A stretch of DNA of 44,010 nucleotides from a virus, in IMG/VR virus record IMGVR_UViG_3300009158_000077, positions 1 to 44,010 of that record; one strand, 5' to 3'. The notes under the pieces are model-generated. The model saw nothing but the letters and a program-made list of their open reading frames with translations, did not search any database and was not told the DNA's origin. Shown in pieces: positions 13,801 to 44,010 of the stretch. Position numbers and translations under genes: made by a program. Within the stretch, counting starts at the first letter, position 1. Each line of letters starts with the position of its first letter.

Positions 13801-14243
13801 GTGGAAGTCTTAGTATTAATCCTGAAAGTTCTGCAATTGTGCATGACTTCTATGTAAAATATATTAAGAATCCTAAGGTGAGTAAGGAAGAGTATAAGGA
13901 GATGAAGAAGAATAAAACAGTCTTCAAAGCTTTTGAACCAGTTCTTTTCCAAAAGTCTGATTTAAAAGATAAGAAAGGAAACATTTTATACTTACCTATC
14001 AGTAAGTTAGGTAATGGAAATAAGATGCTAGAATTGTATACTGATCCTAATCAAGAGTCAATTTTAGAGAACAACAGCAGTAAAGAAGCTGATGTTAGTA
14101 CTAAATTGATGATGGGTGGCTATGTAAGTGCTAGAGAATTATTCCCTGATATGTTTAAAGAAAAAAATACTCCTACTAAAAAGGATAAAGATCAAATAGA
14201 TGAAACTGAGGAGCTAGATGAAAAAGATGACTTTACTTGCTAA
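1833..14243 (+). CDS. Giant crAss-like virion RNA polymerase polyprotein (DFDID motif), 4136 aa
   Basis: One uninterrupted 4136-codon frame. Residues 3253-3257 read DFDID, preceded by AGS, matching the catalytic metal-binding motif of the crAss-like virion RNA polymerase (phi14:2 gp66), which is structurally related to eukaryotic RNA-silencing polymerases. In that family the enzyme is packaged, ejected with the DNA and transcribes early phage genes. Other visible parts: an N-terminal region with glycine-rich hydrophobic segments (about residues 132-160, 213-262 and 340-370) that could touch membranes; acidic and Lys-rich linkers near 950-990 and 1440-1480; and a zincin-like segment with HEAFE at 1766-1770 and a later AEEF that may supply another ligand. 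The C-terminus is highly charged. The polymerase core is in the last third, so about 2000 upstream residues probably form separate cargo or ejection domains. The polymerase call is strong; the other domain boundaries are tentative. Confidence 0.9.
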   Translation: MAENLLEQEQLDSAPQVDQSFPTNTIQQIGLNEPISGSPIAQSQSESYDKIQQQLAQEPKPDRSSLTYDQALNNLNVQANRLNKFTKYEWLDPTVESYNKSGRKYEGNDFGYRYGLDNDDFYGEQEGALKTTGKGIARFGLGVVTKVGQGVGYIGGLLTNDWDSKLISNASDNAFSKVFDSLDEKVKNDWLPTYQEAADRDKGFWSRAFTDGDFWMTDVSDGLAFLVSAWVPGLALSKLKLGASLIKAASGLRVGIGAAEAEIEGAAIASNYIAKGNTAFKGLDKFNAWALATSSEAMFEAKGVKDHVMESLTYDEYGGLRRKADGTLYTEEEKKRIAAGSAQNTFLLNAGLLAATNAIELKWFGKMFGKGEGAVSKGLTRGTMFGEELGIRESVGGIEKFLSTKKGAFLKGALEGTLAEGYLEENGQLAIQRINENYGAAGKIATMGNLGEVFKQYGRQTIDATLGRDQEAATSIGIGAILGAPGGGFSSISQQKQDKLATTAAVEAYNSAQQNWLKFGNIYKTQTIKAADENGNPITKETLVLDPQGEPIIDTKKIAGVTSSFQSVNSALDESLNVTDGFKRDLLRNKAFADFVTAHINAGIEDTLMSKLDGVSKAAPEDVVKLGFVLDNDVTDQINKYKSIAGAIISQNKLLNSDIIFDSTDVDRGRKSRMIDLATDQTIYKNLESELLSDTQTISNQLVNNENSSLTDGIVQQLNDLKTRIQSQTEVIEDLKSKDSLFDLEIAEKVLVGLEKNLSNLEKDNALSLKEIKTDENGFYKFEKAERNDPKVFEQYNKKAKLRGEIQNHIKTVGFEWGKYADTIDGKNNFLKYIASNIIGPYNKKMEEDALQPTSELPDMSAKTMTATYSDQSGEQQTFDFVTGKKYTLKNDDNTISTLTIQDVDPENNSVSVKVNQNPPVDIDASELAAQIANEGWEEVIPEAKKGRGKLPIKNSKDSKDFNNGEDDELEDDNTQPTFSSQNRLPKFEEVGFNKTFGRQYIDEEDTIINKDSGTDRFFAFTAKYNLNRRGYALKVITKDNDDFAIRQSDINEDDLKVVIVKKVTDDAGTISYSYVDGDNKLIPEGQATADNIIYRSLADIKSWDVERVRSSYSVDEDTTDEAIQTIIDEEKAYQEALVERVKEAPVYLTVQTTSPGTQRIEYTSAINANGKREIAKAQVAGRVTVENPDFTDLRSASNPEANIGLRISTGKGVLLSGVLAGRAVMQEYTYENGKKIWGDKIVRVFNRELSDDEKTTVISAMSRLSEFFIKKYGFGFGKTKKKATVLTKSEQAEYDLVYDYLRGVLNWSKPRKGSVSNKYFWIDSGLHRGNIKIDFKPEAIAKNKERLLSNVFHHVNNSALQDNGPFTSIKFVNKKAVPNVKYKSYEEYLLAGRDTDVPPVYTSLPLYDSETPQRSNVYIVWKDPTLTDDTVEEEAPKKKTPSKSTSAKEVRGVSKVKGSEVDDDIDAFIAGEKQKIKVKDYEISYKPKGGGVVVQLKNVKTFKITESTIFKSQKDITANKTVILENIGHLTKYTYGTSKALNPIFEMAQKALTDFRTGTTTTTEKAPNLEEQKTTEIMAALAEALDPEAFLANREFTAEERAIEKAIVEKIDAKYKLLEEQQSKIQEASNIYFNIEDAVANAVVENGKMSATVYEKNVDTGEVAKLAEFSMPVMGGNINITKTLLTKALISQLPSIGDEDAPFRLALDQMTQTEDFDKLRAFMEKNLPMIPIKKMGELIYNKAWGAFLKGAIYIYEKAEIGTGYHEAFEAVWASFLSPEEQGELAKEFKERAGTFYNPFTKETKNYSDASMYDVREMLAEEFRTYTLNAQTPSGKVKGFFQRLWDFIRSLFNLSPTDRQELDGTINNLFKKIGTGGFKNSRAISEKNVMSPVFRIGNFTQKQSSDVLEGLKYHFFTNLFSKGNNIDSILGTLSKQESNQLLSDLWKESMAQVLDNIAVISPNLRTAVDAYSQEFYAEFRKSLERYGVMFSEIETAEEDKTDTLGIRDTITVDPRSMTNTNVRLLLASLPQTQVKNGKVVLVKNDFNQPKLVEEDKVHVTLLNELSNIVSIVDKDGNRTNVLDQMFNRLETKYKSDGNYRDGFGWLRNLKLRLKYEDVKGNKIAATTLDRDDMSLRVSFTKSFSNARFQPEKLIVSDEGYIYNANPLLNVNEDRIRNGWANNLKVRIQNKQTDLVKLDTNGRMIINRKSDNYRELMDTLNDIPNFDILTSLNVLDQLGIEFSAELPQLIEFQASIREQAMQILNVMKAGEIEDLADLFGKNVIGGRLSTLISIESKFNSEDNVLSYLNAEGETQYSVNIPSLLSNTINTLNTVKSQKELVQTCPWLGFIDEDDNVVLNAYQTNSELLKAGGILFDKAGRRKRNTNLKYHVISGTGISDVDGANTAKLQFPERVANEIHYLLQNIVFSNINSDKSTEYGISIPGKLIVNSKDVRDMQEFNDTAIIDKYMAQLADEMSAAVIQSQDPINIQYYQDENTGVYNLGHFRDILGKDLINKFKSDVLSEEPKYENFEEFVEANDAKIKTKIKNYLNDKIAETAEFLKSQDLFVKPAAFSSELYITDAIDNDTLNTILGLGETQNIRYRTLGKDSENLERSGYTEDDINNLAGILAINKEILLTEQHKVIYGHPAMYKDLPKRANGATSNKEALVEDTDVVAWMDNNMVRNDGKQRAKDVHQTIKNISFKDMNVASLFHKDIVENTYAQLIQNNLTKEKAESKIGARFDDQGQLTGFIMKSGKFTGSVKAYMNLVESDAMAMGLPDAIRDILFMSGKFNNQAEAQWNYEMAYEKLVRSGSIKKKNGTKVGKSSPEYKAYTKAEIESSKEIYEKGDPGFVFQVLKPQYFGYAKTDNLTHPVFLKHSLQPKFYRHIEGTQFESLYLAAQKEQIDVIGFESGQKVGNVTTEDNEFLSIYSEDGSANVDIVNNQYTLPESLPRQELYTKFYGIQVEQSSKPKQYVVRGTQVSKIVMTNFFINGAPINEEIGKLIAEYNDTITKMIKLGKQSLLGELGLENLDNQYVVKDLSKLVRTLKAEAEKRNLPENIVNAINYIINQDDTQELQYPFDTLINKDKIDNILNSIVDSRVISEKMSGKASVQVASTLYERNPRDYAYLKDGKYVKLTKEAILTLSKDEKASVRMQSSDLKFYRNKNGKIAGMEVYISWPFKEVTPEELGMVLEDGVYKVNGNIDSQLLKGIGFRIPTDAMNKIEAIVIKGFTPSTNGDMIVVPSEIVGKAGSDFDIDKLNIYLPNSSVVVADYSSKKFKDFMIADMVARGKDERYANDLLNSLSSTQIKEINRSTYTDEGRLSKGALTSLSDIAKDEKTQEDFAFFKQGLSRYNAQYRGKKSLIYTPANDVDKEGLQNKLINVMSELILRPENYSQLVVPNTTENLEVLAEAIKKAKVAAGTKLEEDEKSPTYLRTFVGSATIRERYLTAKRMVGIAALHATLHAIAQVSGLKLNSVFKTSGIKYLAGKDETQRSINIKLSHHPKTEDNLYNIGHITDVNGDTISDLMSEALSGFVDGAKNPFVFDLNFSLNTAGTWFYLQHHGVPVNELAYFFNQPILDSYFTELGKNKSNFKKINGEELIRQDLFYKVVAPYYDRLTGGNLKAKLASVEDSPAGVQTAMKASILKQLNEVDQSKGSYSLSELKQGVSNGDRADAALQISVLMNYLQYESQSRFLSNFMQSISYDTNKTRTTQENMLQIARWERSASEEFVNNPESVLDNTFLGEMKAQKEDIFNMFKNFFITLSPELQEVFQPLYSKIDDPEYFFTKDDVTNLINRYQNHVIGYVLHTTPFVDNDGKTKVMNSLYKDFFTSGGTMAKKLYDYKNSIDPNISDNLVIKELLPLMTDDATKTDNIMLFRNRMDTFQINNVIEALNNLKEYAQETADNDLLTFTDNLAKFSILQSGLQSSFVDFKKILSTEIYSELVKTILDKFKADPKIDTEQVWRTFHQNNWTNRSIVPKAPYWLKVRGGSLSINPESSAIVHDFYVKYIKNPKVSKEEYKEMKKNKTVFKAFEPVLFQKSDLKDKKGNILYLPISKLGNGNKMLELYTDPNQESILENNSSKEADVSTKLMMGGYVSARELFPDMFKEKNTPTKKDKDQIDETEELDEKDDFTC

Positions 14244-14257
14244 AAATAATTTAAACA

Positions 14258-17200
14258 ATGATTTGTAACGTAAGACAAAATACAATTGATAATCTTAAGA
14301 AGAGAGGACTTGTTGATGATAACATGAAAATTATCAGCACGGAATTTGGATTATATAATGATAAGTATTCTAAAATAGCTAAGGATAAGTACGGTGTTAC
14401 AAATACTGATAAGTTATTTACAGTGGATATTCAGCAGATACCTATACTATATCCTACAGGTAATAGAGAAAACTTTAGGCAAGGAAATGCCTATGCTATT
14501 ATAAATGACGAGTTCTTTGATGAACTTCAAGAGTTACATAATGAGTATCATAAAGATTCAGATGCATCAGCATACTATCAGTTACTTAATGATGAGATGA
14601 GTCCTGTTATAGAACGAGAGGATGTAGAAGAAATGGAGGAGCCTATGCCTGTAAACCTACCACAGGTGGCTGCTAAACCTAAGGAGTCTGATAATAAAGC
14701 AGTTATACGTTTCTTAGAGAAAATTGGTGTATCTATCCAGTCTGTAAATGAGATACGTGATTCAGAGGGGAATATAGTTAACGCTGCAGCTAAGGCTAGC
14801 ATGCTTAATAAGATTATTGAGGTGGTAGAAAACAAAGCTTCTTTAGATACATTACCTGAAGAGGCGGCTCACTTCTTTGTAGAAATGCTAGGACCTGGAC
14901 ATCCTTTATATAAAGAGATGTACAATAAGATAACTGGGTATAAGGTGTATACCACTACAGTTAATCAGTACAAGAATAACAAAGCTTTCCGTAATGAAGA
15001 CGGATCTGTAAATTTTGATAAGATTAAGAAAGAAGCTATCGGTAAAGTGATAGCTGAACATATAGTTAAGAACCAAGCTCTAGAAGAGACTGATGAGAAA
15101 TTAGGATCTTTAATTAATTGGTTTAATAGATTGTGGGAGTATGTCACTTCTATATTTAATCAAGCTGATGAGAATCCTTTTGAGGATGCAGCTCAACAGA
15201 TCATTGATGGTGAAACTGCTCAATTAACGGATGAAGGTTTAATTGATGAAGAGTATTATCAATTAGCTGATCCATTGGGTGGATTAAGATTAGATCAAGA
15301 TAACATTGATCTTGATAACAGCATTGATAACAGAACTGGCCAGAAGAGACACATCTATAAGTATAAAGGAGAAGACGCTAAAGGATCTGTTACATCTTTT
15401 TATGTAGATAAGTGGCTTAAGAAGATATTTAGATCTGACCAAAGAAGTGATAAGCAAAAGCTTATTGACTTGGCTAAAGCTGAATATGGAGATATTATCC
15501 ATGAGCAGATTAAAGATATAATTGATAGCTGGTTAAACGAGGATGGTACTAAAAGACCTAGTCAAAAACCTATAGAGATTAAGATTAAGAATCAAGCTGT
15601 CTATAAAGGGTTGAATGATTATATACAAGAGGTTTTAAATCAGTATGATAATAGCACTGTGTTTATGACTGAGGTTAAAATCTTTGATCAGAAAACTAAA
15701 ATTGCTGGTAGTATTGACTTGCTAGCAATACAAGCAGATGGATTAGTAGATATCTATGACTGGAAGTCCCAAGAGATTGGAAAAGAACAGACTGATATCA
15801 AGACCTATAAAGAGCAGATGTATAGGATTCAGTTAGAAAACTATCGTAAAATCTTACAATTACAATACGGTTTTAGTAAGTTTGGTAAGATCCGTGCTAT
15901 CCCTATTAGAACAGCCTTCTCTTTTAGAGATGGAAAAATTGAAACTATTAAAGGCATAGAAGTAGGTAATACCGATCCTACTAAAATTCCTGATGAGAAA
16001 AGTTATTTATTACCTGTAGTTCTTAGAACAGAAAGTACAGGGGACGATCAATTGGATTCTTTGATAGAACAGCTTAATGGTATTTATGATAAGATTCAGA
16101 ATACTAGGTATACTAAAGAAGAGCTGTATAAAAAAAGAGAGGAGCTTAGTCAACTTAGAATAGCTATTCGTGACTTACAATTAAAAGGTAAGGTTAATAG
16201 ACTTGTTGACTTAGGATTATTAGAGTATAAGAAGTACAGTGAGATGTTAGAAAACAAGACATTGACTGGTAAAGATACTCAAGAAGCTATTAAGATTCTT
16301 GAGGTGTTTGGTAAAAGTAATGTACTACTATATGATTTACGTGATCAATACTACACTGTAGTTAAAGAGAAAGGCAATGCTAAAGAGATGGCAGCATTTA
16401 AAGAAGTCAATGATAAGTTTTTGCAAATGACTTCTAAGGTTAGTAAGTTAATTGATACTATTAAAAACTATCGTGATGAGCAAACTAGTACATTAGCTGA
16501 AAGTAATGGTATATTTAACTATCTTAATCCTGAGACTGCAGTGGGAACGTTAAGAGGGTGGTTAACTTCTTTATCTAACATCCCTCAAAAGGCTTTTAGA
16601 ATCTTCTCTAAGATATTAAGAATTGCTCAGAATAGAAGAGATGCTAAGTTTGATAAAACAGCTGGTGAATTGCTAGCTCTTAAAAAGAAGTTTAAACAAT
16701 GGGCAGCTGGAAAAGGTATTAGTACTGATAAAGCTATGGAGATGATTCTTCAGATTAATGACAAGGGTAACTGGACTGGTAACTTTGTAAGTACTTATAA
16801 ATCAGAGTTTTATAAATCTAGAGACAAAGCTATTGAAGATGGTAACTTTGAGTGGTTTGTAGACAACGTAGAATTTGATGATGTTAAGTTTGCTGCGTCT
16901 GAAAAAAGACAGATTGAGTTTTTTAAATCCATACAGTATGCTTTGGATGAACAAGAAAATGCAGCATTGGTTGCTAAAAAGATTGCTGAATGGAAGAGTA
17001 ACTTCCAAGTGATAAGAGAAGATGGTAAAATTAACACTAAGGCTTTAATTAATAAAGATAACAACTTTCTTAAACCTAAGTCTCAATGGTACACTGAAAA
17101 GTGGGCAGAGTTAAATAGAAAAGATGCTGCAGGTAATTACGTTAACGGTCCGTTAAAAGAGATGTATGATTACTTCCAGTCTTTAAATAACTATGCTGAA

Positions 17201-19180
17201 GAACTAGGAATGATTGATAGAAATGTAACTAAGTTTATACCGTCTACATATGCTAGTAAATTAGATCAGTTAGTGTTTGGAGATGTAAAAGGATTGTTTA
17301 GTGCAAAAGGATTGTTTGAAAACTTAGAAGTAGATTCAGGTACAGCATACACTCCAGAAGTTGATCCAACCGATGGTAGTATTATTAATCGTATTCCTGT
17401 ATACTTTACTAAAGACATGGGAGTAACAGATGAAAAGACTGGTGTTACAGATTATTCTAAAAAGTCAAGAGACTTGTTTAAAGTGTATGGTGTATGGTCA
17501 GCTCATATGTATAACTATGAAGCTATGCATTCTATTGAAGATCAATCACTTATGTTATTGGAAGCTGAGAAAAATAAAAAGAGTTTAGTAACTGATGCGT
17601 TTAATAATATAGTATTAGAAAATGGCAAGGTTAAATCTGTTAAAAATAATGATAGAAATGCTAACTTACTAGAAGGTTTTATTAACTATTATATTTATGA
17701 TAGTCTCCAAGGTAAAGGGAGTGATACTAAGATTAAGGTGAATATTCCACTACTTAATATTAATAAAGAATACTCATTATTAAAGACAGTACAGTCAGCT
17801 ATATCTTTCTTTAGTTTAAAGACATTAGCATTAAACCCTATTTCAGCGTCAGCTCAGTTTGTAGGTGGTACAGGTAATGCTTTGTTCGTTGCTCAAAAAG
17901 GTATATTCTTTACTAATAAAACTTGGGCTAGAGCTATACATGCTGTAGGAGGGAGTAAGAAAGCTCGTGCAGCTTTAGTATACCTCAATATTTTACAAGA
18001 AGGTAATAAAAACCTATTGATAGACGATCTATCTTTATCAGCTACTAATGCTGTATTAAAGAAAGATAACTTCTATGCTATGCAAAGAGCAGCAGATAAA
18101 GGAGTTCAATACCCTGTAGCAATTGCTATAATGATGGATCATATGGTAGTAGATGGTCAGATTGTTAGTATACAAAAGTTTGTAAAAGATAAGTATAACT
18201 ATAATGAAAGCTTCTATTCTTTATCTTCTTCAGAGAGAAAAGCTCTGATGGCTAAGATAGATAAAGAAGTGGGTGAGTTACAGGATAAAGAAAGTATACT
18301 AGTTAAAGGTGAGTTAGATAAGGATGGTCAATTTTCTATTCCGGGGATTGATAAAGAGTCTGATACTTTTTCTGACTTTAGAAGTAAGATAAAGGGAGTA
18401 AGTAAAAAGATACTAGGTAACTCAACTAGAGATGATATCAATAGTATTAGAAGCACAGTGTACGGTTCTGCTTTAATGCAGTTTAGAAACTGGATACCAG
18501 AGATGGTTGAGGAGCGTTTAGGAGGTCTTCAGTATGATGATGAATTACAAACTTGGACCTACGGTAAGTTTAACGTATTCTTTAGTAAGATCTTTTTTAA
18601 GAACATCCCTACATTACTTAAAGGTATTATCACTGGTTTTGGTGATGATGTTGTAAAGATGGGTAGAGAAAAGTTTGAAAACTTAAAACGTGATGCTCTT
18701 GAAAAAGGACAGGAATTTAATATATCTGAGGCTGAGTTCATAGACATGTACAAAGGTAATCTAAGATCTATGATGCTAGAAGTTATGGTTCTTACATCTT
18801 TTGCAGTTGCTATTATGTCAGTTGTTTCAGGAGATGATGAAGATAGAAAGAATAAGGGCATGAAGTTATACTTAGGTAGAGCCCTTAGAAAATACTATAA
18901 TGAGTTTGCATTCTACTACTTACCTACTGAATTTACTAAGTTAATTAAATCTCCTGTTCCGGCAGTTGGTCTAGCTGAAGATATGTATAGATTTATGGGA
19001 GCTTTAAGTAAAGAGACTTATGGTCAAGTTACAGGAAATGAAGAGTTAATTAAGTCTGCAAAACCTTTAAAATACTTTAATAGAATGGTACCTGTAGCTA
19101 AAGAAGCAATGTTACTTATGGCTACATATGATGATGACTTTAGAAAAGACTGGGATATTAAACTACAAGCAGGATACTAA
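14258..19180 (+). CDS. Giant multi-domain phage protein with PD-(D/E)XK nuclease core and zincin-like segment, 1640 aa
   Basis: It starts 14 bases after the polymerase gene. Residues 201-205 read EEAAH within an LPEEAAHFFVE context and are followed by KVIAEH, which resembles the zincin-like segment of the first giant protein with a degenerate HExxH. Around residues 410-505 there is a PD-(D/E)XK nuclease arrangement: a GDIIHEQ helix, D487 in GSIDLL, then D501-W-K503. A coiled-coil stretch (about 600-690) and long helical regions follow. One probable membrane helix lies near residues 1505-1525. crAss-like phages commonly encode one or more giant proteins beside the RNA polymerase, thought to be virion cargo. 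Here the domain order suggests a protein ejected into the cell that can cut DNA or process other proteins. The nuclease motif is clear by eye; the target is unknown. The gene ends at a strong terminator. Confidence 0.85.
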   Translation: MICNVRQNTIDNLKKRGLVDDNMKIISTEFGLYNDKYSKIAKDKYGVTNTDKLFTVDIQQIPILYPTGNRENFRQGNAYAIINDEFFDELQELHNEYHKDSDASAYYQLLNDEMSPVIEREDVEEMEEPMPVNLPQVAAKPKESDNKAVIRFLEKIGVSIQSVNEIRDSEGNIVNAAAKASMLNKIIEVVENKASLDTLPEEAAHFFVEMLGPGHPLYKEMYNKITGYKVYTTTVNQYKNNKAFRNEDGSVNFDKIKKEAIGKVIAEHIVKNQALEETDEKLGSLINWFNRLWEYVTSIFNQADENPFEDAAQQIIDGETAQLTDEGLIDEEYYQLADPLGGLRLDQDNIDLDNSIDNRTGQKRHIYKYKGEDAKGSVTSFYVDKWLKKIFRSDQRSDKQKLIDLAKAEYGDIIHEQIKDIIDSWLNEDGTKRPSQKPIEIKIKNQAVYKGLNDYIQEVLNQYDNSTVFMTEVKIFDQKTKIAGSIDLLAIQADGLVDIYDWKSQEIGKEQTDIKTYKEQMYRIQLENYRKILQLQYGFSKFGKIRAIPIRTAFSFRDGKIETIKGIEVGNTDPTKIPDEKSYLLPVVLRTESTGDDQLDSLIEQLNGIYDKIQNTRYTKEELYKKREELSQLRIAIRDLQLKGKVNRLVDLGLLEYKKYSEMLENKTLTGKDTQEAIKILEVFGKSNVLLYDLRDQYYTVVKEKGNAKEMAAFKEVNDKFLQMTSKVSKLIDTIKNYRDEQTSTLAESNGIFNYLNPETAVGTLRGWLTSLSNIPQKAFRIFSKILRIAQNRRDAKFDKTAGELLALKKKFKQWAAGKGISTDKAMEMILQINDKGNWTGNFVSTYKSEFYKSRDKAIEDGNFEWFVDNVEFDDVKFAASEKRQIEFFKSIQYALDEQENAALVAKKIAEWKSNFQVIREDGKINTKALINKDNNFLKPKSQWYTEKWAELNRKDAAGNYVNGPLKEMYDYFQSLNNYAEELGMIDRNVTKFIPSTYASKLDQLVFGDVKGLFSAKGLFENLEVDSGTAYTPEVDPTDGSIINRIPVYFTKDMGVTDEKTGVTDYSKKSRDLFKVYGVWSAHMYNYEAMHSIEDQSLMLLEAEKNKKSLVTDAFNNIVLENGKVKSVKNNDRNANLLEGFINYYIYDSLQGKGSDTKIKVNIPLLNINKEYSLLKTVQSAISFFSLKTLALNPISASAQFVGGTGNALFVAQKGIFFTNKTWARAIHAVGGSKKARAALVYLNILQEGNKNLLIDDLSLSATNAVLKKDNFYAMQRAADKGVQYPVAIAIMMDHMVVDGQIVSIQKFVKDKYNYNESFYSLSSSERKALMAKIDKEVGELQDKESILVKGELDKDGQFSIPGIDKESDTFSDFRSKIKGVSKKILGNSTRDDINSIRSTVYGSALMQFRNWIPEMVEERLGGLQYDDELQTWTYGKFNVFFSKIFFKNIPTLLKGIITGFGDDVVKMGREKFENLKRDALEKGQEFNISEAEFIDMYKGNLRSMMLEVMVLTSFAVAIMSVVSGDDEDRKNKGMKLYLGRALRKYYNEFAFYYLPTEFTKLIKSPVPAVGLAEDMYRFMGALSKETYGQVTGNEELIKSAKPLKYFNRMVPVAKEAMLLMATYDDDFRKDWDIKLQAGY

Positions 19181-36391: not shown

Positions 36392-36670
36392 ATGACTAAA
36401 GACAATCCTTCTATAGGTACATTTAAAGCTTGGATATTCCCAACACTTGTATCCTTAGTTAGTTTACTCATCTGGAATGATGTAAACGAGATTAAATCTG
36501 ATGTAAAGTTACTAATGGCTCAGTCTAATATAGACAAGACCCGTATTGACAACTTAGAACGTCAAATGTTTAAAGCTAGTAATACACTGCCTTCACCATC
36601 TATCCCTAGAAAAGAAGAAGAGATTACATATGCTGTCTTAGTAGATAACAAAATAAAATTTACAAAATGA
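36392..36670 (+). CDS. Membrane-anchored coiled-coil lysis-region protein, 92 aa
   Basis: 92 residues. Residues about 11-30 (AWIFPTLVSLVSLLIWNDV) form one membrane span, followed by a heptad-like helix (NEIKSDVKLLMAQSNIDKTRIDNLERQM) and a charged tail. This layout, one span plus coiled coil beside a holin-like gene and endolysin, resembles hemolysin XhlA-type or holin-partner proteins. It overlaps the next gene by 4 bases. Role inferred from position. Confidence 0.75.
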   Translation: MTKDNPSIGTFKAWIFPTLVSLVSLLIWNDVNEIKSDVKLLMAQSNIDKTRIDNLERQMFKASNTLPSPSIPRKEEEITYAVLVDNKIKFTK

Positions 36671-36915
36671 ACTTTAAAGACTGGGTTTTAGATCTTTTTA
36701 AAGATGAGCGTGGCTCTACATCAATTAAACCAGTGGTAGGTTTTATGTGTGCATTATTCTTATGTGTAACATTAACAGCTAATAGCTTTAGTCATGGAGA
36801 TATAAAACCTTCTGACGCTTTAGTTGACGCTGTAATGTTCATATGTATAGCTGCTATAGGCGGTGATACTGCTGACAAGTTTTCACATAAAAAGAAACCA
36901 AATGAAATATCTTAG
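36667..36915 (+). CDS. Holin-like small membrane protein, 82 aa
   Basis: 82 residues. Two probable membrane spans: about 22-40 (IKPVVGFMCALFLCVTLTAN) and about 52-68 (LVDAVMFICIAAIGGDTA), with a short His/Asp loop and a Lys-rich C-terminal tail (FSHKKKPNEIS). Size, two spans and basic tail fit a class II holin. In the lysis cassette it would make holes in the inner membrane so that the GH19 endolysin reaches the wall. Other holin candidates lie further right (41969 and 42575), so the assignment is not unique. Confidence 0.7.
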   Translation: MNFKDWVLDLFKDERGSTSIKPVVGFMCALFLCVTLTANSFSHGDIKPSDALVDAVMFICIAAIGGDTADKFSHKKKPNEIS

Positions 36916-37522
36916 TATAATTATAGTTATATTAATAGTGGTGCTGTTCTTCCAACAAGGAGGATGTGGCTACGTTAATTTTAACGGTAAAAAATCAGAT
37001 ACAACTGTTGTACATGATACTAGTTGGTCTGTACATGATACAACTATTTATAAGACAATGACTTTAAAGGGTAAGGTGTTACATGACACTATTGCCACTC
37101 CTTCAGAATATATAGCTGATACTAATTATCCTAAGCTTTTAGCTCAGTATAATGACTTATTAGGTAAGTATATGGCTCTTGTAGAATTTAAAGATACTAT
37201 TAGAATAGATACCCTTGGTTATGTAGCTATTACAGATACAGTGAACCAGAATAGTCTTAGAGGTAGATCAGTGAGATCTAACTATAAGATTCCTACAATA
37301 ACTAACACTGTAACTATACAGCATTATGAAAAGCCTAAGACTCAAATGTTTTTGGGTGGTGGTATAAATGGTAATCAAACTCTTGGAATTACAGGAGCTA
37401 GTGCTGGATTGTTATTAAAGAATAAAAAAGATCATATTTATGGATTGAATATAGGTACTGAAATTAACGGTCCTATCACTTATGGTATTCAATCTTATTG
37501 GAAGATAAAATTAAAGAAATAG
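36902..37522 (+). CDS. Spanin-like membrane or lipoprotein-like protein, 206 aa
   Basis: 206 residues from the ATG at 36902, preferred over 36863 because the first 13 codons would lie in the holin-like gene. The start is MKYLSIIIVILIVVLFFQQGGC, a hydrophobic segment ending in Gly-Gly-Cys, which may be a lipobox or a membrane anchor. A helical region with repeated Asp/Thr (HDTSWSVHDTTIYKTM) follows, and the last 60 residues are Gly-rich beta strands (FLGGGINGNQTLGITGASAGLLL). Bacteroidota phages often carry a protein of this shape between holin and endolysin. It could link inner and outer membrane during lysis (spanin). It overlaps the upstream gene by 14 bases. Confidence 0.65.
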   Translation: MKYLSIIIVILIVVLFFQQGGCGYVNFNGKKSDTTVVHDTSWSVHDTTIYKTMTLKGKVLHDTIATPSEYIADTNYPKLLAQYNDLLGKYMALVEFKDTIRIDTLGYVAITDTVNQNSLRGRSVRSNYKIPTITNTVTIQHYEKPKTQMFLGGGINGNQTLGITGASAGLLLKNKKDHIYGLNIGTEINGPITYGIQSYWKIKLKK

Positions 37523-37693: not shown

Positions 37694-38311
37694 ATGGACC
37701 TATCTCGTTTAAAAGGACATGTTCCTGATACAGTTATTGCTCAGATTCCTTCTATACAAGAAAAGTTTGGTGTTAACACTGCATTACGTTTAGCTCACTT
37801 TCTAGCTCAAGCTGGTCATGAATCTGGTGGATTTAGAGTTACACAAGAAAACCTTAACTACTCTGCTAAAGGCTTAACAGGTATATTTAAGAAATACTTT
37901 ACAAGACCTGATAAAACCATAGATGAACCTAAGGCTGCAGCTTATGCTAAGAAGCCTGAAAAGATTGCTAATCTTGTTTATGGTGGTAGAATGGGTAACG
38001 GTCCAGAGTCTTCTGGTGATGGTTACAAGTTCAGAGGCCGTGGTTACATCCAGTTAACTGGTAAAGATAACTATACAGCATTTGGTAAATCTATTGGTAT
38101 AGATATGCTAGTTAATGCTGATTCAGTAGCTTCAACACATGCTCTAACTTCTGCAGCATGGTTCTGGTCTAAGAATAAACTTAATGAAATTGCTGATACA
38201 GGTGCTACTGATGAAGTGGTTACCAAGATCACAAAAAGAGTTAATGGTGGTACAATTGGTCTACCTGATCGTATCAAACATTTTAAAGAGTTTCACACCC
38301 TACTTGTATAA
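37694..38311 (+). CDS. GH19 chitinase-like endolysin
   Basis: 205 residues, a single glycoside hydrolase family 19 catalytic domain. The catalytic Glu is E43 in the motif HFLAQAGHESGGF (residues 35-47). The second landmark is YKFRGRGYIQLTGKDNY in the middle, then AAWFWSKNKLNEIAD and KRVNGGTIGLPDR near the end, all typical of phage GH19 lysozyme-like enzymes. It cuts the peptidoglycan sugar chain at the end of infection. No signal peptide, so it needs a holin to reach the wall. It follows the lysis membrane genes and is the clearest gene of the cassette. Confidence 0.93.
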   Translation: MDLSRLKGHVPDTVIAQIPSIQEKFGVNTALRLAHFLAQAGHESGGFRVTQENLNYSAKGLTGIFKKYFTRPDKTIDEPKAAAYAKKPEKIANLVYGGRMGNGPESSGDGYKFRGRGYIQLTGKDNYTAFGKSIGIDMLVNADSVASTHALTSAAWFWSKNKLNEIADTGATDEVVTKITKRVNGGTIGLPDRIKHFKEFHTLLV

Positions 38312-38328
38312 CATTTAAATAAACCACA

Positions 38329-38451
38329 ATGGCTAAAGTAAAATCAGACAGTCGTAAGATTAGTTTTGGTAAGCGTAAAACAGGAAGAGCTTATAAAACA
38401 TCTGGCCCCAAAGCTAAAAAAATTAGTAAATATAGAGGACAGGGTAGATAA
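38329..38451 (+). CDS. Small basic protein, 40 aa
   Basis: ATG 38329, TAA 38449-38451. 40 residues, highly basic (MAKVKSDSRKISFGKRKTGR...KKISKYRGQGR), with no acidic residue after Asp7. Such short Arg/Lys/Gly peptides can bind nucleic acid or be packaged with DNA. It begins 17 bases after the endolysin. Its stop codon lies in the loop of the terminator behind it, so translation termination and transcription termination overlap. Confidence 0.6.
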   Translation: MAKVKSDSRKISFGKRKTGRAYKTSGPKAKKISKYRGQGR

Positions 38452-38466
38452 TTTCTACCCTTTTTT
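38442..38466 (+). terminator. Intrinsic terminator closing the lysis cassette
   Basis: A perfect 7-bp stem GGGTAGA (38442-38448) / TCTACCC (38454-38460) with a TAATT loop is followed by TTTTTT. The stop codon of the 40-residue gene is inside the loop. It separates the lysis cassette from the exported-protein genes. Confidence 0.85.
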
Positions 38467-38485: not shown

Positions 38486-39130
38486 ATGGTAGCAATTATT
38501 AATAAAGCTAAGCTATACTTGGTATATACTTTCTTTACGTTGTTTGGATTATGGTTAGTATTTGCACTATCGTTGATGTCTTATGCTTTATATCTAGAGT
38601 TTTCTAATCAACAAGAAACTCTAAGAAACATGACTAACTGGATAGAATGGAGAATTGACGGGACATTTAAAAACAGTCCTGAAAATATCTGGTATGAAGG
38701 TCCTGAAGATATTACTATAGGAGCTATTACTAATAAGGTACAAATGGGTAATCTTGCCGGTAATAGAAAATTAGAATTCGGTGTAAAGAACATCCTAGAA
38801 GAGGTGATACAAGAAAGAGGAATATCTCTAGATCCTGCTTCTAAAAATATGTTAAAGGTGGATATAGTCTATTTAGATGTTTTAAAGACTCAAGCTAGCT
38901 TCTCAATTGTACATAATAACAAAGAGTCTGTAGTAATTAGATTACAAGGCTTCCTGTATAAAGATGGTAAATTATCTAAAAAGTTCTTAGTTGAAGAGTC
39001 TGCAGATGAAATCTCTATGTCTACACTACTTGTAGATGAGGGAGGTAAGTTTAATAACCAAAACCTATCTAGTGCTTTAAAAAAAGCATGTAGTTCATTA
39101 GTAACCAAAATAATAGAAGATAAAAAATGA
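38486..39130 (+). CDS. Membrane-anchored periplasmic-type protein, 214 aa
   Basis: 214 residues. Residues about 12-35 (VYTFFTLFGLWLVFALSLMSYALYL) form one membrane span with a short cytoplasmic start; the remaining 175 residues are probably periplasmic. The C-terminal half (LKVDIVYLDVLKTQASFSIV, then VIRLQGFLYKDGKLSKKFLVEES, then LSSALKKACSSLVTKII) has a strand-strand-helix pattern loosely like the CsgG-type protein encoded at 42790, so the two may be related, but this is weak. It overlaps the cohesin/dockerin-like gene by 4 bases (ATGA), which ties it to the exported set. Function unknown. Confidence 0.7.
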   Translation: MVAIINKAKLYLVYTFFTLFGLWLVFALSLMSYALYLEFSNQQETLRNMTNWIEWRIDGTFKNSPENIWYEGPEDITIGAITNKVQMGNLAGNRKLEFGVKNILEEVIQERGISLDPASKNMLKVDIVYLDVLKTQASFSIVHNNKESVVIRLQGFLYKDGKLSKKFLVEESADEISMSTLLVDEGGKFNNQNLSSALKKACSSLVTKIIEDKK

Positions 39131-41253
39131 GTAAATTAAGACTGTTTCTTGTCACAATTTTTACAATATGTGTGACACTATCTTACGGACAAATTAAATT
39201 TAAAGCTGCTACATCAGTAGGTGGTGCATCTTTAGATAGAGGTACAACCTTTGATTATGTTATTTATGCTAATGGTAATAGTAATTCTACTACCCGTCAG
39301 TTATTATTTGATATTCAGTATGACAAAGATAACTTTGAATTAGTTACTGTTGCTCATACTGGTACTGGTGGTAATGGTGGTATTCTTCCTCAGAATTCAT
39401 CACCTACTATTTCTTATTATAACTATCCAGGTTATAACTTTATTCCCGCTACTTCAGGTAATAATAATAATACCACTACAAACGGTACAACTAATTATCA
39501 GTATGCCAATTATAATTATAGTGCTACTAATCCTTATGCTATTTTAAGAAGTACACTTACTTGGTCTACTAATTCTGCAATGCCTTACACTAGTTATGAT
39601 GGTCTTGTTAAAATTACATTTAGATTAAAAGCAGCTTCTACAGCTTACACTTTCAATCCTATAAAGTTAAACTTTGTAGCTGCTTGGAATGCGGCAGGTG
39701 GTTGGGATAATACACTTATGGAAACTCCATTAAGTACAAATGTTATCATGAATCAAAACTTTGGTAAGTATGTAACTGCTAGTGTAGATTTAAACTCTAA
39801 CTTATATAATTTATCAAGTTTAAAAGTAGCGTTCTATGACACTCTTGCTAAAACAGCTCAGTTATTTAATGTTACTTCAACAGGAGCTGTAGATATTAAT
39901 CAATCCTTATTAGCTGCTGACAAGGTGTATGATGTCACTCTTATGCATGATATGGATAAGCTATACAACATATACAATAGTGCAATTACTATATCAGACT
40001 TTACTACAGCTCAAAATGAGTTCACTTCTATGGGTCTGGACGGATCTAACGGTCAGAATTTAAAAACTGGACAGTCTTTATTAGCTGCAGATATCAATGA
40101 TAACAGTAAAATAGATGGGGGAGACCTTCCTAGATTGTTAGCTCAGGTTGCAGGTATAGATACATTATTTAAATTACCTACTACCTATACCTCTTCAGGA
40201 GCAGGTACTAGTTATATGAGTATTCCTACTTGGAAAGCTGCTGATGTAATGAGTGTTGGTGGTCAAGTGGAATGGTCTTATGTATCTGTAGGTACTAGTA
40301 ATAGTACACTGTATTTAGATATGAGAAAATTCCCCACAGGTGTAACACCTAGTAGTATTAGAAGTATACAATTATTTGATCTATACACTGGACCTATAGA
40401 ATATTTATCTGCAGATGCTACATGGGCACAATATAGAGTGCCTTCTACATTTACTAAAGCATCTGATGGAACTTCTACATATATTCCTTATATAAGAGCA
40501 AATGGTATAGATTATTCTTTTAAGTCTGAATTTGTATTTGATGTAAGTCCTAATAGTTCTTGGGGAGCTATCACTACATCCAATTGGAAAACTATTACAA
40601 CACCTCATGCGTATTTTAAAACAGGACCAATAGGTACTAATGCTATACTTGATCTTAAGTATCTTTTATGGGCTGATGTAAATAGATCTCACTCTTCTCA
40701 GGTGATTGTATCTTCCGGAGGTACATCTTCTGTACAGACTAATGCTGTTAATAGCTTACAAACAAACACTGTGTTTAAGACTATGGCTACTCAAGTGCAA
40801 GCTACCGGGGGATGGATTAACACTCCATATGATATTAGTGCTGTAGATGTAAACTTAACAAATTCAACTGTAACAAGTAACACTATAGAAATACCTGTAG
40901 GTTTAGATACTAAGGGTTTAAATGTAAGTGGTTTACAGTTTGAATTTACGTTTGATCCTGCTAAGATAAAATTTGAAGAGTTAATTCCAACAGTACCTGC
41001 TACATGGTATGTATTTGCTAATACAAAAGATGGTCGTGTAAAGTTTGGAGCGTTAGATCAGAACAAGTCTGCTTCTCTCACTGGTGTAAGTGTTCCGTTT
41101 AAACTTAAGTTTAGCACTATAGGAGAAGGAGTGAATATATTAACAGCTATCAAAGTGTCACAAACTATGGACGCTTCTGATGCTAAAGGAAATCAATTAG
41201 GTATTAATCTAAATACTTCACAAATTAAATTAACAGGTTATAACAATTTCTAA
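39127..41253 (+). CDS. Secreted cohesin/dockerin-like phage protein, 708 aa
   Basis: 708 residues with a clear signal peptide (MSKLRLFLVTIFTICVTLSYG, cleavage before Gln22, a common Bacteroidota pattern). Residues about 22-205 look like a cohesin-type beta sandwich (FDIQYDKDNFELVTV, later GLVKITFRLKA). At residues 322-333 an EF-hand-like loop (D322, N324, N326, K328, D330, D333) inside AADINDNSKIDGGDLPRLL resembles one half of a dockerin. The middle is beta-rich. Residues about 565-705 form another cohesin-like unit (LQFEFTFDPAKIKFEEL; SVPFKLKFSTIGEG). Cohesin-dockerin pairs join proteins in cellulosomes and on cell surfaces. A signal peptide is unexpected for a tail or head protein, since virion assembly is cytoplasmic. 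A host-surface protein made during infection is the best reading; a structural protein is the alternative. Confidence 0.75.
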   Translation: MSKLRLFLVTIFTICVTLSYGQIKFKAATSVGGASLDRGTTFDYVIYANGNSNSTTRQLLFDIQYDKDNFELVTVAHTGTGGNGGILPQNSSPTISYYNYPGYNFIPATSGNNNNTTTNGTTNYQYANYNYSATNPYAILRSTLTWSTNSAMPYTSYDGLVKITFRLKAASTAYTFNPIKLNFVAAWNAAGGWDNTLMETPLSTNVIMNQNFGKYVTASVDLNSNLYNLSSLKVAFYDTLAKTAQLFNVTSTGAVDINQSLLAADKVYDVTLMHDMDKLYNIYNSAITISDFTTAQNEFTSMGLDGSNGQNLKTGQSLLAADINDNSKIDGGDLPRLLAQVAGIDTLFKLPTTYTSSGAGTSYMSIPTWKAADVMSVGGQVEWSYVSVGTSNSTLYLDMRKFPTGVTPSSIRSIQLFDLYTGPIEYLSADATWAQYRVPSTFTKASDGTSTYIPYIRANGIDYSFKSEFVFDVSPNSSWGAITTSNWKTITTPHAYFKTGPIGTNAILDLKYLLWADVNRSHSSQVIVSSGGTSSVQTNAVNSLQTNTVFKTMATQVQATGGWINTPYDISAVDVNLTNSTVTSNTIEIPVGLDTKGLNVSGLQFEFTFDPAKIKFEELIPTVPATWYVFANTKDGRVKFGALDQNKSASLTGVSVPFKLKFSTIGEGVNILTAIKVSQTMDASDAKGNQLGINLNTSQIKLTGYNNF

Positions 41254-41255
41254 CT

Positions 41256-41630
41256 ATGAGAAAAATAGACAAAATTTTAGGGTTAGGGTTTTTAGTAACA
41301 CTATTAGCGTTAAGCTGTAGAAAGGTGGATGTTCCTGTAATAATGAGTACCATTGATTTAGGTATTAAATCTACAGCTACATCTATAAAGTCTATAGGTC
41401 AAACTGGTAATATTGTTACTGCGGAGTTTGTTACCACTCCGGGAGCTAAGTATTCAGTACAAGTAATTCCATTTGGAAAAGATGAGGCTATTAAAACAGA
41501 GGGCTTTACAGCAACTGATACACTCACTAAAAAGGTATACGATCTATCTGCATTACCTAAAAAAGATTATGATTTAATCTTTATAGATATAGCAGGTAAA
41601 GAAGTTAAACATCCAATAATTATAAAATAA
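41256..41630 (+). CDS. Small lipoprotein, 124 aa
   Basis: 124 residues. The start MRKIDKILGLGFLVTLLALSC is a lipoprotein signal with the lipobox LALS-C21, so the mature protein would be lipid-anchored at Cys21. About 100 residues of beta-rich sequence follow (IVTAEFVTTPGAKYSVQVIPFG and YDLIFIDIAGKE), like a single immunoglobulin-type domain. It begins 2 bases after the cohesin/dockerin-like gene, so the two may be partners, with this one as the membrane anchor. No family named. Confidence 0.75.
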   Translation: MRKIDKILGLGFLVTLLALSCRKVDVPVIMSTIDLGIKSTATSIKSIGQTGNIVTAEFVTTPGAKYSVQVIPFGKDEAIKTEGFTATDTLTKKVYDLSALPKKDYDLIFIDIAGKEVKHPIIIK

Positions 41631-41635
41631 ATTTT

Positions 41636-41941
41636 ATGTCAGAAGAACAACAAGAATCAACAGGCTCTAGTCTAAAAAAAACAATATTAGGTACTATAGC
41701 TACAGTTGTAACGGCTGGTGGGGCTTGGTTAGGCTCAACCTTATTTGGTGGAGGAGAAGATAAAGCTGCTGCTCCAGCACCTGCTCCAGTAATTAATATC
41801 ACTAACTCTAATCAGCAATCTCAAGCTGCTGGTGGTAAAACTGTTATTATTAATCAGAAAGCTGCAGAACCGGCTAAACCGGCTGCTCCTGTTAAAAAGA
41901 AAGAAGCTGACGAGTTTAAAGAAAAACCTGCTCAGTGGTAA
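41636..41941 (+). CDS. Small membrane protein with Ala/Pro linker, 101 aa
   Basis: 101 residues. One hydrophobic, Gly-rich segment (residues 17-38, TILGTIATVVTAGGAWLGSTLF) sits behind a polar start. An Ala/Pro linker (KAAAPAPAPVINIT) follows, then a Gln/Asn-rich stretch and a Lys/Ala/Pro tail (AEPAKPAAPVKKKEADEF). There is no cleavable signal. It could be a holin-type or spacer protein that reaches across the periplasm. It starts 5 bases after the lipoprotein. Role unknown. Confidence 0.7.
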   Translation: MSEEQQESTGSSLKKTILGTIATVVTAGGAWLGSTLFGGGEDKAAAPAPAPVINITNSNQQSQAAGGKTVIINQKAAEPAKPAAPVKKKEADEFKEKPAQW

Positions 41942-41968
41942 TATATTATTAAGAATTAAAAATCTCTT

Positions 41969-42550
41969 ATGGAAGATAAAAAACAACCAGAATCCGGTGG
42001 ATTTAAAGAACTATTAGGTAAAATGATGACTAGACGCTGGTATATTACTGGCTTAGTACTAGGAACATTTATTATGATCATAGCTGGAATATTCGTAGCT
42101 GTATCTAATAATGCTGTTATGTCCGGTGAATGGAAAGAACTACTTATGTTATTATTAGGAGCTTTTATTGGCTCTTATGGTAAGATTATAGATTACTGGT
42201 TCTCTGATACTGACAAAGATAAAATGCTTGTACAGAAAATGGACGAGGAAGATGGTGTTAGTATAGGTAGTGTTAATGACATTAAAGAGTCTAACAAACC
42301 TTATGCTCCATTAATCCCTGATGCATTTGTTGCTGCTGCGGGCCGAGCGTCTGAACAAACTAAGATTGATCATGTAGTTAAAGCTGAAGCTGATAAAGTG
42401 GCTGAACAGCATCACCATGAGATTGAGCTTAAGAAATTAGAGTTTGAGCATCAAGAACACAGACAGTGTGAGCATGTGTTTGCAGATATAGACCATGATG
42501 GAGACTATGAATGTATCCACTGTGGTAAGATCAAGGATGAACATTGTTAA
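41969..42550 (+). CDS. Two-span membrane protein with C-terminal zinc-knuckle, 193 aa (holin-like)
   Basis: 193 residues. Two membrane spans, about 24-45 (YITGLVLGTFIMIIAGIFVAV) and 56-73 (LLMLLLGAFIGSYGKII), are followed by a long charged helical region (IDHVVKAEADKVAEQHHHEIELKKLEFEHQEH). The end has CEHVF, CIHC and a terminal Cys, a zinc-binding pattern around a DIDHDGDYE loop. The spans resemble small phage holins; the extended coiled region with a metal knuckle is unusual and would probably stay in the cytoplasm. It could tie membrane and a cytoplasmic partner together. Confidence 0.75.
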   Translation: MEDKKQPESGGFKELLGKMMTRRWYITGLVLGTFIMIIAGIFVAVSNNAVMSGEWKELLMLLLGAFIGSYGKIIDYWFSDTDKDKMLVQKMDEEDGVSIGSVNDIKESNKPYAPLIPDAFVAAAGRASEQTKIDHVVKAEADKVAEQHHHEIELKKLEFEHQEHRQCEHVFADIDHDGDYECIHCGKIKDEHC

Positions 42551-42574
42551 CTTAATTAACTCCCATGGACCCTG

Positions 42575-42793
42575 ATGAATTACAAAGACAGAATAAAAAG
42601 ATTTACTTTTTACAAAGATACTTCCCTACTATTAGCCATGTTTTTTCTGCCGTTTGGCTACGACTTCCTCTTCAAGCTGATTATGGACGCTACAGGTTCG
42701 TATTGGGCTGCAGATATAACTTTCTATTTCCTTTCCGGATGCTTCTGGCTCTCTTTTATATATTGGTCCAGATCTATAAATAAATCTAAATGA
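42575..42793 (+). CDS. Small two-span membrane protein, 72 aa
   Basis: 72 residues (MNYKDRIKRFTFYKDTSLL start). Two hydrophobic spans, about 18-37 and 44-64 (WAADITFYFLSGCFWLSFIYW), with a basic N-terminus and C-terminus. Its stop overlaps the start of the CsgG-like gene as ATGA, which decides in favour of this frame over the alternative at 42565-42783. Possibly a holin-type or membrane-modifying peptide. Confidence 0.7.
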   Translation: MNYKDRIKRFTFYKDTSLLLAMFFLPFGYDFLFKLIMDATGSYWAADITFYFLSGCFWLSFIYWSRSINKSK

Positions 42794-43506
42794 AGAACAT
42801 ACTAATTTTTATAACAGGTTTACTATTAACTATTAGCAGTAATGCTCAGATAGCTAAGACTCAAACTGAGAATTATAAAGCTAGCTTTGAAAAGGCTATA
42901 GACATATCACAATTTTTAGACTATGAAGGTGTACAAATACCTATACAAATCCTTAAAGCGGGTATATCAGATGAGATGTATGAAATGTATCCGGAGCTTA
43001 AAGAAAAGCGTGTAGGATTAGGCGTAGCTAACATTTCTATGGAGTATTTAGAGAACCTTAATAGGTTCAAGTTTACAGAGGATAAGACAGAGATTAAAAA
43101 CCGTATGGTAAAGCAGTTTCAAGCTTCACAATCTGGCATCTCTGAGAATAAACTAGACGGTAGAGGTAAGATTAACCTAGCTAAGTATTTTGTTACTATT
43201 GAATGCTATGACTATTCTATATCAGAAGACGAGTCTGTTTATATTAAAGGTGATACCAAACAAATGATGGTAACACGTATTGGTCTGCAAGTGAGATTTA
43301 CAGATGCTGAGACAGCAACCATTATTTCTGCCTCTGGGCTTGGTGAGGCTAAGACTACTAAAGAGACTTCAGGATTATCTGATGCTTCTTTAGACCCAGT
43401 TAAGTTTAATCAATCTACCATATCTATTGCTACAAAGAAGGCTCTAGATATAGCTTGTGCTAGAATTCTAGATAGGATGGTTAAAAAAGGAATATTTACT
43501 AAGTAA
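42790..43506 (+). CDS. CsgG-like exported protein, 238 aa
   Basis: 238 residues with a signal peptide (MKNILIFITGLLLTISSNA, cleavage before Gln20, with no lipobox Cys). The body follows the order of CsgG/curli-type secretion proteins: VGLGVANISMEYLENLNRFKF, then a GKINLAKYFVTIECYDYS strand pair, TRIGLQVRFTDAETATIISASGLGEA (the characteristic strand with a TGE-like turn, here AETATI), and a final helix (ATKKALDIACARILDRMV). CsgG forms an outer-membrane channel that exports amyloid subunits. A phage copy next to secreted adhesin-like proteins could make a pore or assist their export. The family call is by pattern; no lipid-anchor Cys is visible, unlike classic CsgG. Confidence 0.6.
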   Translation: MKNILIFITGLLLTISSNAQIAKTQTENYKASFEKAIDISQFLDYEGVQIPIQILKAGISDEMYEMYPELKEKRVGLGVANISMEYLENLNRFKFTEDKTEIKNRMVKQFQASQSGISENKLDGRGKINLAKYFVTIECYDYSISEDESVYIKGDTKQMMVTRIGLQVRFTDAETATIISASGLGEAKTTKETSGLSDASLDPVKFNQSTISIATKKALDIACARILDRMVKKGIFTK

Positions 43507-43516
43507 ATTTATTGTT

Positions 43517-43624
43517 ATGGCAAACGCTAAGAAAAAGAAAAGAGCTATGAGATCAGTTAAGTCTGGAGTTAAAACTGCAGCTTTAATCAAATCTAATCTA
43601 GTCATCTTAAACAAGTTAAAGTGA
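43517..43624 (+). CDS. Small basic peptide, 35 aa
   Basis: ATG 43517, TGA 43622-43624. 35 residues, Lys-rich start (MANAKKKKRAMRSVKSGVK) and a hydrophobic end (AALIKSNLVILNKLK), so it could bind nucleic acid or lie on a membrane. It begins 10 bases after the CsgG-like gene and its stop immediately precedes the next start. Family unknown; similar in style to the 40- and 55-residue basic proteins of the block. Confidence 0.55.
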   Translation: MANAKKKKRAMRSVKSGVKTAALIKSNLVILNKLK

Positions 43625-44010
43625 TTGAAAAAGTTTATATTTGCTCTAATTTTAGTAGTATTACTACCTTTTTATGCGTATAATCAAACTCTTATACAGA
43701 CTTTTGTTGACCCTTGTACAAAAGTCGTTAGCACTTTTAGTATTCCTATCAATGGGATTACTACTATTGTCTTTTATAATAAGTCTCGTACTTTTACTTC
43801 CGCTGATGTATCTTCTGGTGCATTTCAGGCTTGGCTTAATCAAGTGTATGAAGACTATAGAAAATTATCTCCCTGCTCTGTTGCTCAAACTGCACAAACT
43901 AGCAATACAGTTACAGCCAACGCTGTCTCTGCTGCAGTAAGTGCTGCTGTAAGCTCTGCAACGTCATCTGCGGCTTCTAGTGCCGCTTCTTCAGCTGCTT
44001 CTGCCGCTGC
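43625..44010 (+). CDS. Secreted Ala/Ser-rich protein with TTG start (3' partial)
   Basis: The frame opens with TTG at 43625, directly after the preceding TGA, and runs off the window (at least 128 residues). With TTG read as Met, the start is MKKFIFALILVVLLPFYAYN, a good signal peptide or membrane anchor. Then come about 60 residues of mixed sequence with two Cys (VDPCTKV; LSPCSVAQ), and from about residue 90 a low-complexity Ala/Ser/Val stretch (AAVSAAVSSATSSAASSAA). The frame and composition fit far better than the overlapping 88-codon ATG frame at 43674-43940. The Ala/Ser repeat suggests a flexible or fibre-like exported protein; the remainder lies outside the window. Confidence 0.7.
   Translation, partial: MKKFIFALILVVLLPFYAYNQTLIQTFVDPCTKVVSTFSIPINGITTIVFYNKSRTFTSADVSSGAFQAWLNQVYEDYRKLSPCSVAQTAQTSNTVTANAVSAAVSAAVSSATSSAASSAASSAASAA

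Follow-up and report, generated by a model that had tools for sequence, protein, structure and literature searches.

A conserved operon of exported envelope proteins in tailed phages and its possible part in surface display on infected Bacteroidota

Gene content and conservation of the locus

The last part of a 44,010-nucleotide stretch of viral DNA (IMG/VR virus record IMGVR_UViG_3300009158_000077, positions 1 to 44,010; hereafter the window) harbors a tight plus-strand operon of exported or membrane proteins, which begins at 38486 and reads A-B-C-D-E-F-G-H. A lysis cassette and then a terminator precede it, several of its genes overlap or almost abut, and H runs off the window end. A single-strand cluster of exported proteins had been described at this place in an earlier note made from the DNA letters, and the open reading frames (ORFs) A to H were confirmed from 38486 to the window end; the interpretation given in that note found support in part. 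Operons of exported proteins are rarely kept by tailed phages. Throughout, export was inferred from sequence signals scored by a simple script, folds are predictions from monomer models, and the genome collections consist of metagenomic fragments. The features of the module are as follows (aa, amino acids).

38486..39130, + strand: A, membrane-anchored protein with a YajG/TraT-like (LptE/CsgG-superfamily) domain (PF03923, E=3e-5)
39127..41253, + strand: B, surface protein with a signal peptide, a cohesin at aa 585-686 and a dockerin-like motif from aa 322 onwards
40090..40128, + strand: dockerin-like calcium-loop motif DINDNSKIDGGDL in B, seen in the sequence
40879..41184, + strand: cohesin-like domain of B (PF00963, E=5.8e-4, aa 585-686)
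41256..41630, + strand: C, small lipoprotein (lipobox Cys) with an immunoglobulin (Ig)/C-terminal-domain-like end
41636..41941, + strand: D, protein with a single transmembrane (TM) segment and a Pro/Ala-rich tail (53/53 lineages)
41969..42550, + strand: E, two-TM protein with a His/Cys-rich tail and holin-like topology (35/53 lineages)
42575..42793, + strand: F, small two-TM protein, at whose place a holin-like gene of the h2 type is found in other lineages
42790..43506, + strand: G, exported protein of predicted CsgG fold (AlphaFold model, Foldseek), the most conserved member
43517..43624, + strand: basic 35-aa ORF separating G from H, seen in the sequence
43625..44010, + strand: H, cut by the window end, with a signal peptide, a disulfide domain and the start of an Ala/Ser linker (full-length homologue L060:11728-13017)

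Relatives of G were found on 480 stretches of viral contigs, and a second scan, for which the homologue of the cultured Flavobacterium phage immuto served as the query, reached a distant branch. A set of 199 loci was collapsed to 77 divergent lineages, and the lineage counts refer to the 53 in which G is flanked by 7 kb or more on either side. All of these 53 possess D and H together with one or more B-type exported proteins, while A is found in 48; the remaining frequencies are 38/53 for the holin-like gene h2, 36/53 for a glycoside hydrolase family 19 (GH19) endolysin within 7.5 kb of G, 35/53 for E and 22/53 for C. The term B-type denotes a class and not strict orthologues, as iteration broadened the B profile until it took in further exported proteins of lectin or Ig type. 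Export signals were detected on B, C, G and H, whereas 629 of the 711 other ORFs of the same loci carry none. Because the set is kept in 53/53 divergent lineages and non-module ORFs rarely bear export signals, its composition is not due to chance, and A-H is a real conserved module. A check of co-conservation in crAss-like relatives had been proposed in the earlier note, with scattering of the single genes among relatives as the contrary outcome; the genes are kept together, crAss-like relatives included.

Carriers of the module include crAss-like podoviruses, T4-like myoviruses and jumbo phages. Among 50 large contigs, a crAss-like capsid protein was detected on 11 (6 near, 5 at ~26% identity) and a T4-like tail sheath on 25, among them phages 269 to 326 kb in size, and none carried both markers, the identities of which were verified by PHROGs and by comparison to named phages. 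The crAss-like capsid and portal proteins belong to close relatives of the window (G001 and others) and not to the window fragment itself. The portal of the crAss-like carrier G001 (L221:13639-16374) was closest to that of a cyanophage, Leptolyngbya phage Lbo-JY46 (33%), with the gut crAss-like phages behind. In the tree of G, a single clade (98/99) holds the crAss-like rows and adjoins six window-type myoviruses, and 14 further contractile-tailed rows constitute the other branch; this tree, midpoint-rooted only, suggests one transfer of the module between virion types, and the D tree was too short for judging transfers.

Flavobacterium phage immuto, in which G is gp017 and H is gp018, is the one cultured carrier, and a search of INPHARED with B and G retrieved G only in immuto phages. 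No copy of G was found in bacterial chromosomes by one scan of genome contigs and 395 Bacteroidota genomes, in which only phage-like contigs were matched; an origin of the module in the host was rejected on these scans. Two matches of G in bacterial assemblies sit on phage-like contigs. L219 and L220 are phage-like contigs binned in GTDB bacterial assemblies, namely a Flavobacterium metagenome-assembled genome (MAG) and an uncultured Bacteroidetes MAG.

Predicted folds and domains of the module proteins

G shares 83-89% identity with relatives whose replicative helicase DnaB stands at 52-63%. Its synonymous differences amount to 0.56-0.81 per site, close to the 0.65-0.90 of DnaB, while its nonsynonymous rate (dN) is ~0.1, so that the identity is attributed to purifying selection, very strong as judged from the sequences, and not to recent exchange. 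Recent transfer was considered as its cause and rejected, since the synonymous sites have strongly diverged. The AlphaFold model of G, built on 40 sequences, has a mean predicted local distance difference test (pLDDT) score of 75.6 and displays the CsgG-type order of elements. Against solved structures, ranks 1-22 of the Foldseek matches were all CsgG (best E 9.1e-7), followed by FlgT, GNA1162, PelC and LptE, with modest template modelling (TM) scores of 0.34-0.49; among viral models, the sole strong match was an annotated phage CsgG. At the level of sequence, membership in the CsgG family was tried and rejected: PF03783 gave no match in the window G and matched 1/40 homologues at 2.3e-4, and hhalign of G against E. 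coli CsgG, with a shallow profile, returned a probability of 2%. The label "CsgG-like" thus holds for the modelled fold but not for the sequence. G possesses a signal peptide; a lipobox is found in 28/115 distinct homologues (about a quarter) and is absent from the window copy, which does not have the N-terminal lipidation of the CsgG style. G may serve as a pore, although a ring or adaptor in the periplasm, like PelC, would fit equally well.

The Ala/Ser-rich signal-peptide protein of the earlier note proved to be the N-terminus of a larger protein: the signal peptide is there, but the gene continues past the window. Complete H, read from the near-identical contig L060, comprises 429 aa, and the genes beyond it lie on the opposite strand in convergent orientation. 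After the signal peptide, H is predicted to contain a small alpha/beta domain in which cysteines are conserved, a long helix (residues 86-130), a disordered linker rich in Ala, Ser and Lys, and a barrel of 12 strands with pLDDT values of 75-89. FapF was the best structural match by E-value (2.7e-7). The barrel alone is not diagnostic, because the small porins NanC and KdgM match it with higher target TM-scores; the model as a whole describes an outer-membrane 12-strand barrel with a periplasmic domain in a FapF-like layout. Between G and H, L060 encodes X, a 296-aa outer-membrane-barrel-like protein (L060:10717-11607), which is cleanly absent at window 43506-43625 and is placed between B and D in T4-like relatives.

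B accounts for the cohesin/dockerin-like protein of the earlier note. The cohesin match of the window B alone (PF00963, E=6e-4) falls just short of the curated cut-off, and the domain was recognized in 10/15 B-type proteins (best 1.4e-10). Some B-type proteins contain dockerin, C-type lectin or laminin-G domains; the dockerin was matched by Pfam at 0.0016, and the corresponding region of the L194 homologue matched the solved ScaB dockerin at E=5.9e-4. A Por_Secre_tail sorting domain (PF18962) ends four B homologues above the curated cut-off, each with a signal peptide (immuto gp015, L194, L208 and L220). Cargo with such domains is carried to the cell surface by the type IX secretion system (T9SS) of the host, and the domain therefore indicates the cell surface as the destination of these homologues. 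The earlier proposal of surface display gains support from them, immuto gp015 included, but not from the window copy of B, in which Pfam found no T9SS sorting domain.

The lipobox cysteine of C is invariant in 21/21 aligned homologues. Among the loci with enough upstream sequence, 81 have only C, 61 only the sorting domain, none both and 14 neither; L124, one of the latter, carries other small lipoproteins where C would be. A Por_Secre_tail match at the end of C in 2/21 homologues (0.004) gives a hint only that this end resembles the sorting-domain fold.

Homologues of A matched PF03923 (YajG) in 7/15 cases and TraT (PF05818) in 3/15, the latter weakly (best 5.9e-4), and comparison of A by sequence with solved structures returned nothing significant. 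TraT is a surface-exclusion protein. Many homologues of A have a signal peptide in place of the membrane anchor. The synonymous difference between A and its L060 counterpart is 0.57, against 0.07-0.26 for neighbouring genes, and the module start (gene A, 38486-39130) looks like a recombination hot spot. None of the module proteins could be placed convincingly in a PHROGs family.

Surface display, lysis and other candidate functions

The reading we favor, to which we would assign an even chance, is that a module horizontally shared by phages of very different build infecting aquatic Bacteroidota refits the envelope of the infected cell and displays the cohesin/lectin-type protein B on its surface. 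It is drawn from the co-conservation of D, H and B-type proteins in 53/53 lineages and of A in 48/53, together with a phage-specific and strongly constrained G; from the CsgG fold of G, the FapF-like layout of H, the cohesin, dockerin, lectin and T9SS domains of B-type proteins and the export signals of B, C, G and H; and from the sharing of one module by crAss-like phages and contractile-tailed ones and the mutual exclusion of C and the sorting domain.

How the proteins might join in a complex, by which route B leaves in the window clade, and with what timing and purpose are parts that we infer, and the scheme would run as follows. A, B, C, G and H would be exported by Sec; H would insert in the outer membrane, and A (LptE/YajG fold) and G (CsgG fold) would assemble beneath it, giving an envelope-spanning assembly that D, E and F would anchor to the inner membrane. 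In the immuto-type clade, B would leave via the host T9SS, while in the window-type clade, which has no sorting signal, its display may fall to lipoprotein C together with the G-H assembly. The infected cell would thereby acquire a new surface, the likeliest purpose of which may be the masking or alteration of receptors against superinfection, or the keeping of sibling cells close to released virions. Exclusion of competitor phages and cell aggregation are purposes with precedent in phage biology.

Several observations weigh against this scheme. The pore-hairpin regions of G comprise 26 + 26 residues versus 33 + 37 in CsgG, the first being acidic and the second poorly modelled, and a G-H conduit is doubtful in view of these short hairpins and of the many porins that match an H-type barrel; the CsgG-like exporter of the earlier note was not borne out as a pore, given the shortened hairpins and the missing sequence-level membership. 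The exclusivity of C and the sorting domain mostly follows one deep phylogenetic split and not many independent events. B-type proteins are very diverse, and the displayed product would differ between lineages. In addition, GH19 within 7.5 kb of G and h2 tie lysis genes to the module in most lineages. A more ambitious proposal, which we put forward tentatively and hold to be improbable on balance, is a new envelope-spanning secretion or display machine, in which a ring of CsgG fold and a barrel of the FapF kind, mobile between unrelated tailed phages, would export B or couple it to the host T9SS and so recode the surface.

A lysis role, left unweighed in the earlier note, is the main rival of surface display, although we consider it unlikely. 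G, H and A would here breach the Bacteroidota outer membrane or reduce its strength, alongside the h2/E holins and the GH19 endolysin, with B-type proteins as passengers or rupture aids. The relevant neighbours in the window are listed below.

36667..36915, + strand: h2, two-TM holin-like protein, located within the module in several lineages
36863-37522: spanin-like gene of the lysis cassette, with an N-terminal anchor or lipoprotein signal, a long stalk rich in Asp and Thr, and a C-terminal part rich in beta structure
37694..38311, + strand: GH19 endolysin of the lysis cassette (PF00182 2e-10, phrog_181 1e-68)
38441..38461, + strand: intrinsic-terminator-like hairpin at the boundary of lysis cassette and module (8-bp stem, loop 5, TTTTTTC tail)

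By estimate, random placement of an endolysin in a ~130 kb genome would bring it this near in ~1/8 of the lineages, which are not independent, versus the 36/53 seen. In some lineages (L041, L219), h2 and even GH19 stand inside the module gene order, the endolysin has no signal peptide and therefore needs a holin, and a lytic role has a precedent in the proposal for CsgG of phage Melnitz. On the other hand, GH19 is not nearby in 17 lineages, T9SS sorting, lectin and cohesin domains would be odd for this role, and the window lysis cassette already has endolysin, holin-like and spanin-like genes and is separated from the module by a terminator. This boundary, claimed in the earlier note, was recovered as the hairpin at 38441-38461 (8-bp stem plus T run) after the GH19 endolysin, the best among 6 hairpins found versus 3.0 expected. 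The module may also serve both display and lysis.

The remaining explanations are far less probable. A channel for import or gating, in which the G/H assembly would admit larger nutrients or cofactors and B would bind surface glycans in a SusCD-like scheme, would agree with the match of the H barrel to the oligosaccharide porins NanC and KdgM, with the C-type and laminin-G lectin domains of B-type relatives and with the uptake role proposed for pelagiphage CsgG, but the operon contains no TonB-dependent receptor, SusD-like protein or metabolic genes, and we deem it very improbable. That B and others end on the particle as virion or adsorption parts is the least credible, since the large B with its binding domains resembles some tail or decoration proteins but the signal peptides that B, G and H bear, the T9SS sorting domain of B homologues and the position of the module far from the head and tail genes in a T4-like genome argue against it.

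Some further observations concern the surroundings. The spanin-like gene type of window 36863-37522 turns up downstream of H in other lineages. Very basic short ORFs at 38329-38451 (40 aa) and 43517-43624 (35 aa) lie beside or within the module, and the terminator at 38441-38461 overlaps the end of the former. Scans for the Bacteroidota -7 motif and sigma-70 promoters gave no excess over shuffles, and no promoter was assigned. Elsewhere in the window are the giant ORFs 1833-14243 (4136 aa) and 14258-19180 (1640 aa), the second of which matches a PHROG exonuclease (3e-9).

Relation to known systems and meaning for phage biology

Modules of type VIII (curli) secretion, which encode CsgG/CsgF and sometimes curlin-like repeats as well, are known in pelagimyophages, HTVC023P-type pelagiphages and phage Melnitz (PMC7029224, PMC9599517, PMC9004378). 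They share with the present module a phage-borne operon that encodes exported products and an outer-membrane protein of CsgG fold, the spread across phage families, the absence from host chromosomes, and aggregation, superinfection exclusion and lysis as candidate roles. In contrast, no recognizable CsgF, CsgA/B, FecR or adenylate cyclase is found here, and G has scant sequence similarity to CsgG and shorter hairpins, whereas cohesin/dockerin/lectin proteins, lipoprotein C, the FapF-like barrel H, Bacteroidota hosts and T9SS signals are added. As Pfam detected no CsgA/B curlin repeats, CsgF or CsgE in the A, B, C, G and H families (D, E and F being scanned as window copies only), the minimal curli-like system suggested earlier finds no support.

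With FapF, through which the Fap amyloid of Pseudomonas is exported, H shares a periplasmic N-terminal domain, a disordered linker and a 12-strand outer-membrane barrel; it appears to differ in having an alpha/beta disulfide domain in place of a coiled coil, and neither FapC/FapD-like partners nor an amyloid substrate were identified. T9SS cargo of Bacteroidota resembles the B homologues in the terminal Por_Secre_tail, but the latter are phage-encoded and the window B does not carry the domain. The likeness to cellulosome scaffoldins, cohesin and dockerin in one surface protein, is at the domain level only, with no enzyme partners or scaffoldin repeats seen. PelC and LptE share the fold of G, and YajG and, weakly, TraT (5.9e-4) resemble A in sequence, whereas the module has no genes for polysaccharide or lipopolysaccharide transport. 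A literature search did not find "crAss-like" and "cohesin" together in one paper, and no report of phage T9SS cargo surfaced among the papers listed. The earlier statement that no such phage system had been described is correct for the exact make-up of A-H, which matches no described phage system, but phage curli-type export genes are already known.

The finding of an exported protein, G, which is more conserved than the replicative helicase and common to crAss-like, T4-like and jumbo phages, points to an undescribed general step of infection in Bacteroidota. The type IX secretion signals on phage proteins suggest that this host pathway is used by phages, and the cultured carrier immuto, with Flavobacterium strain LMO8, makes surface display, superinfection exclusion and lysis directly testable.

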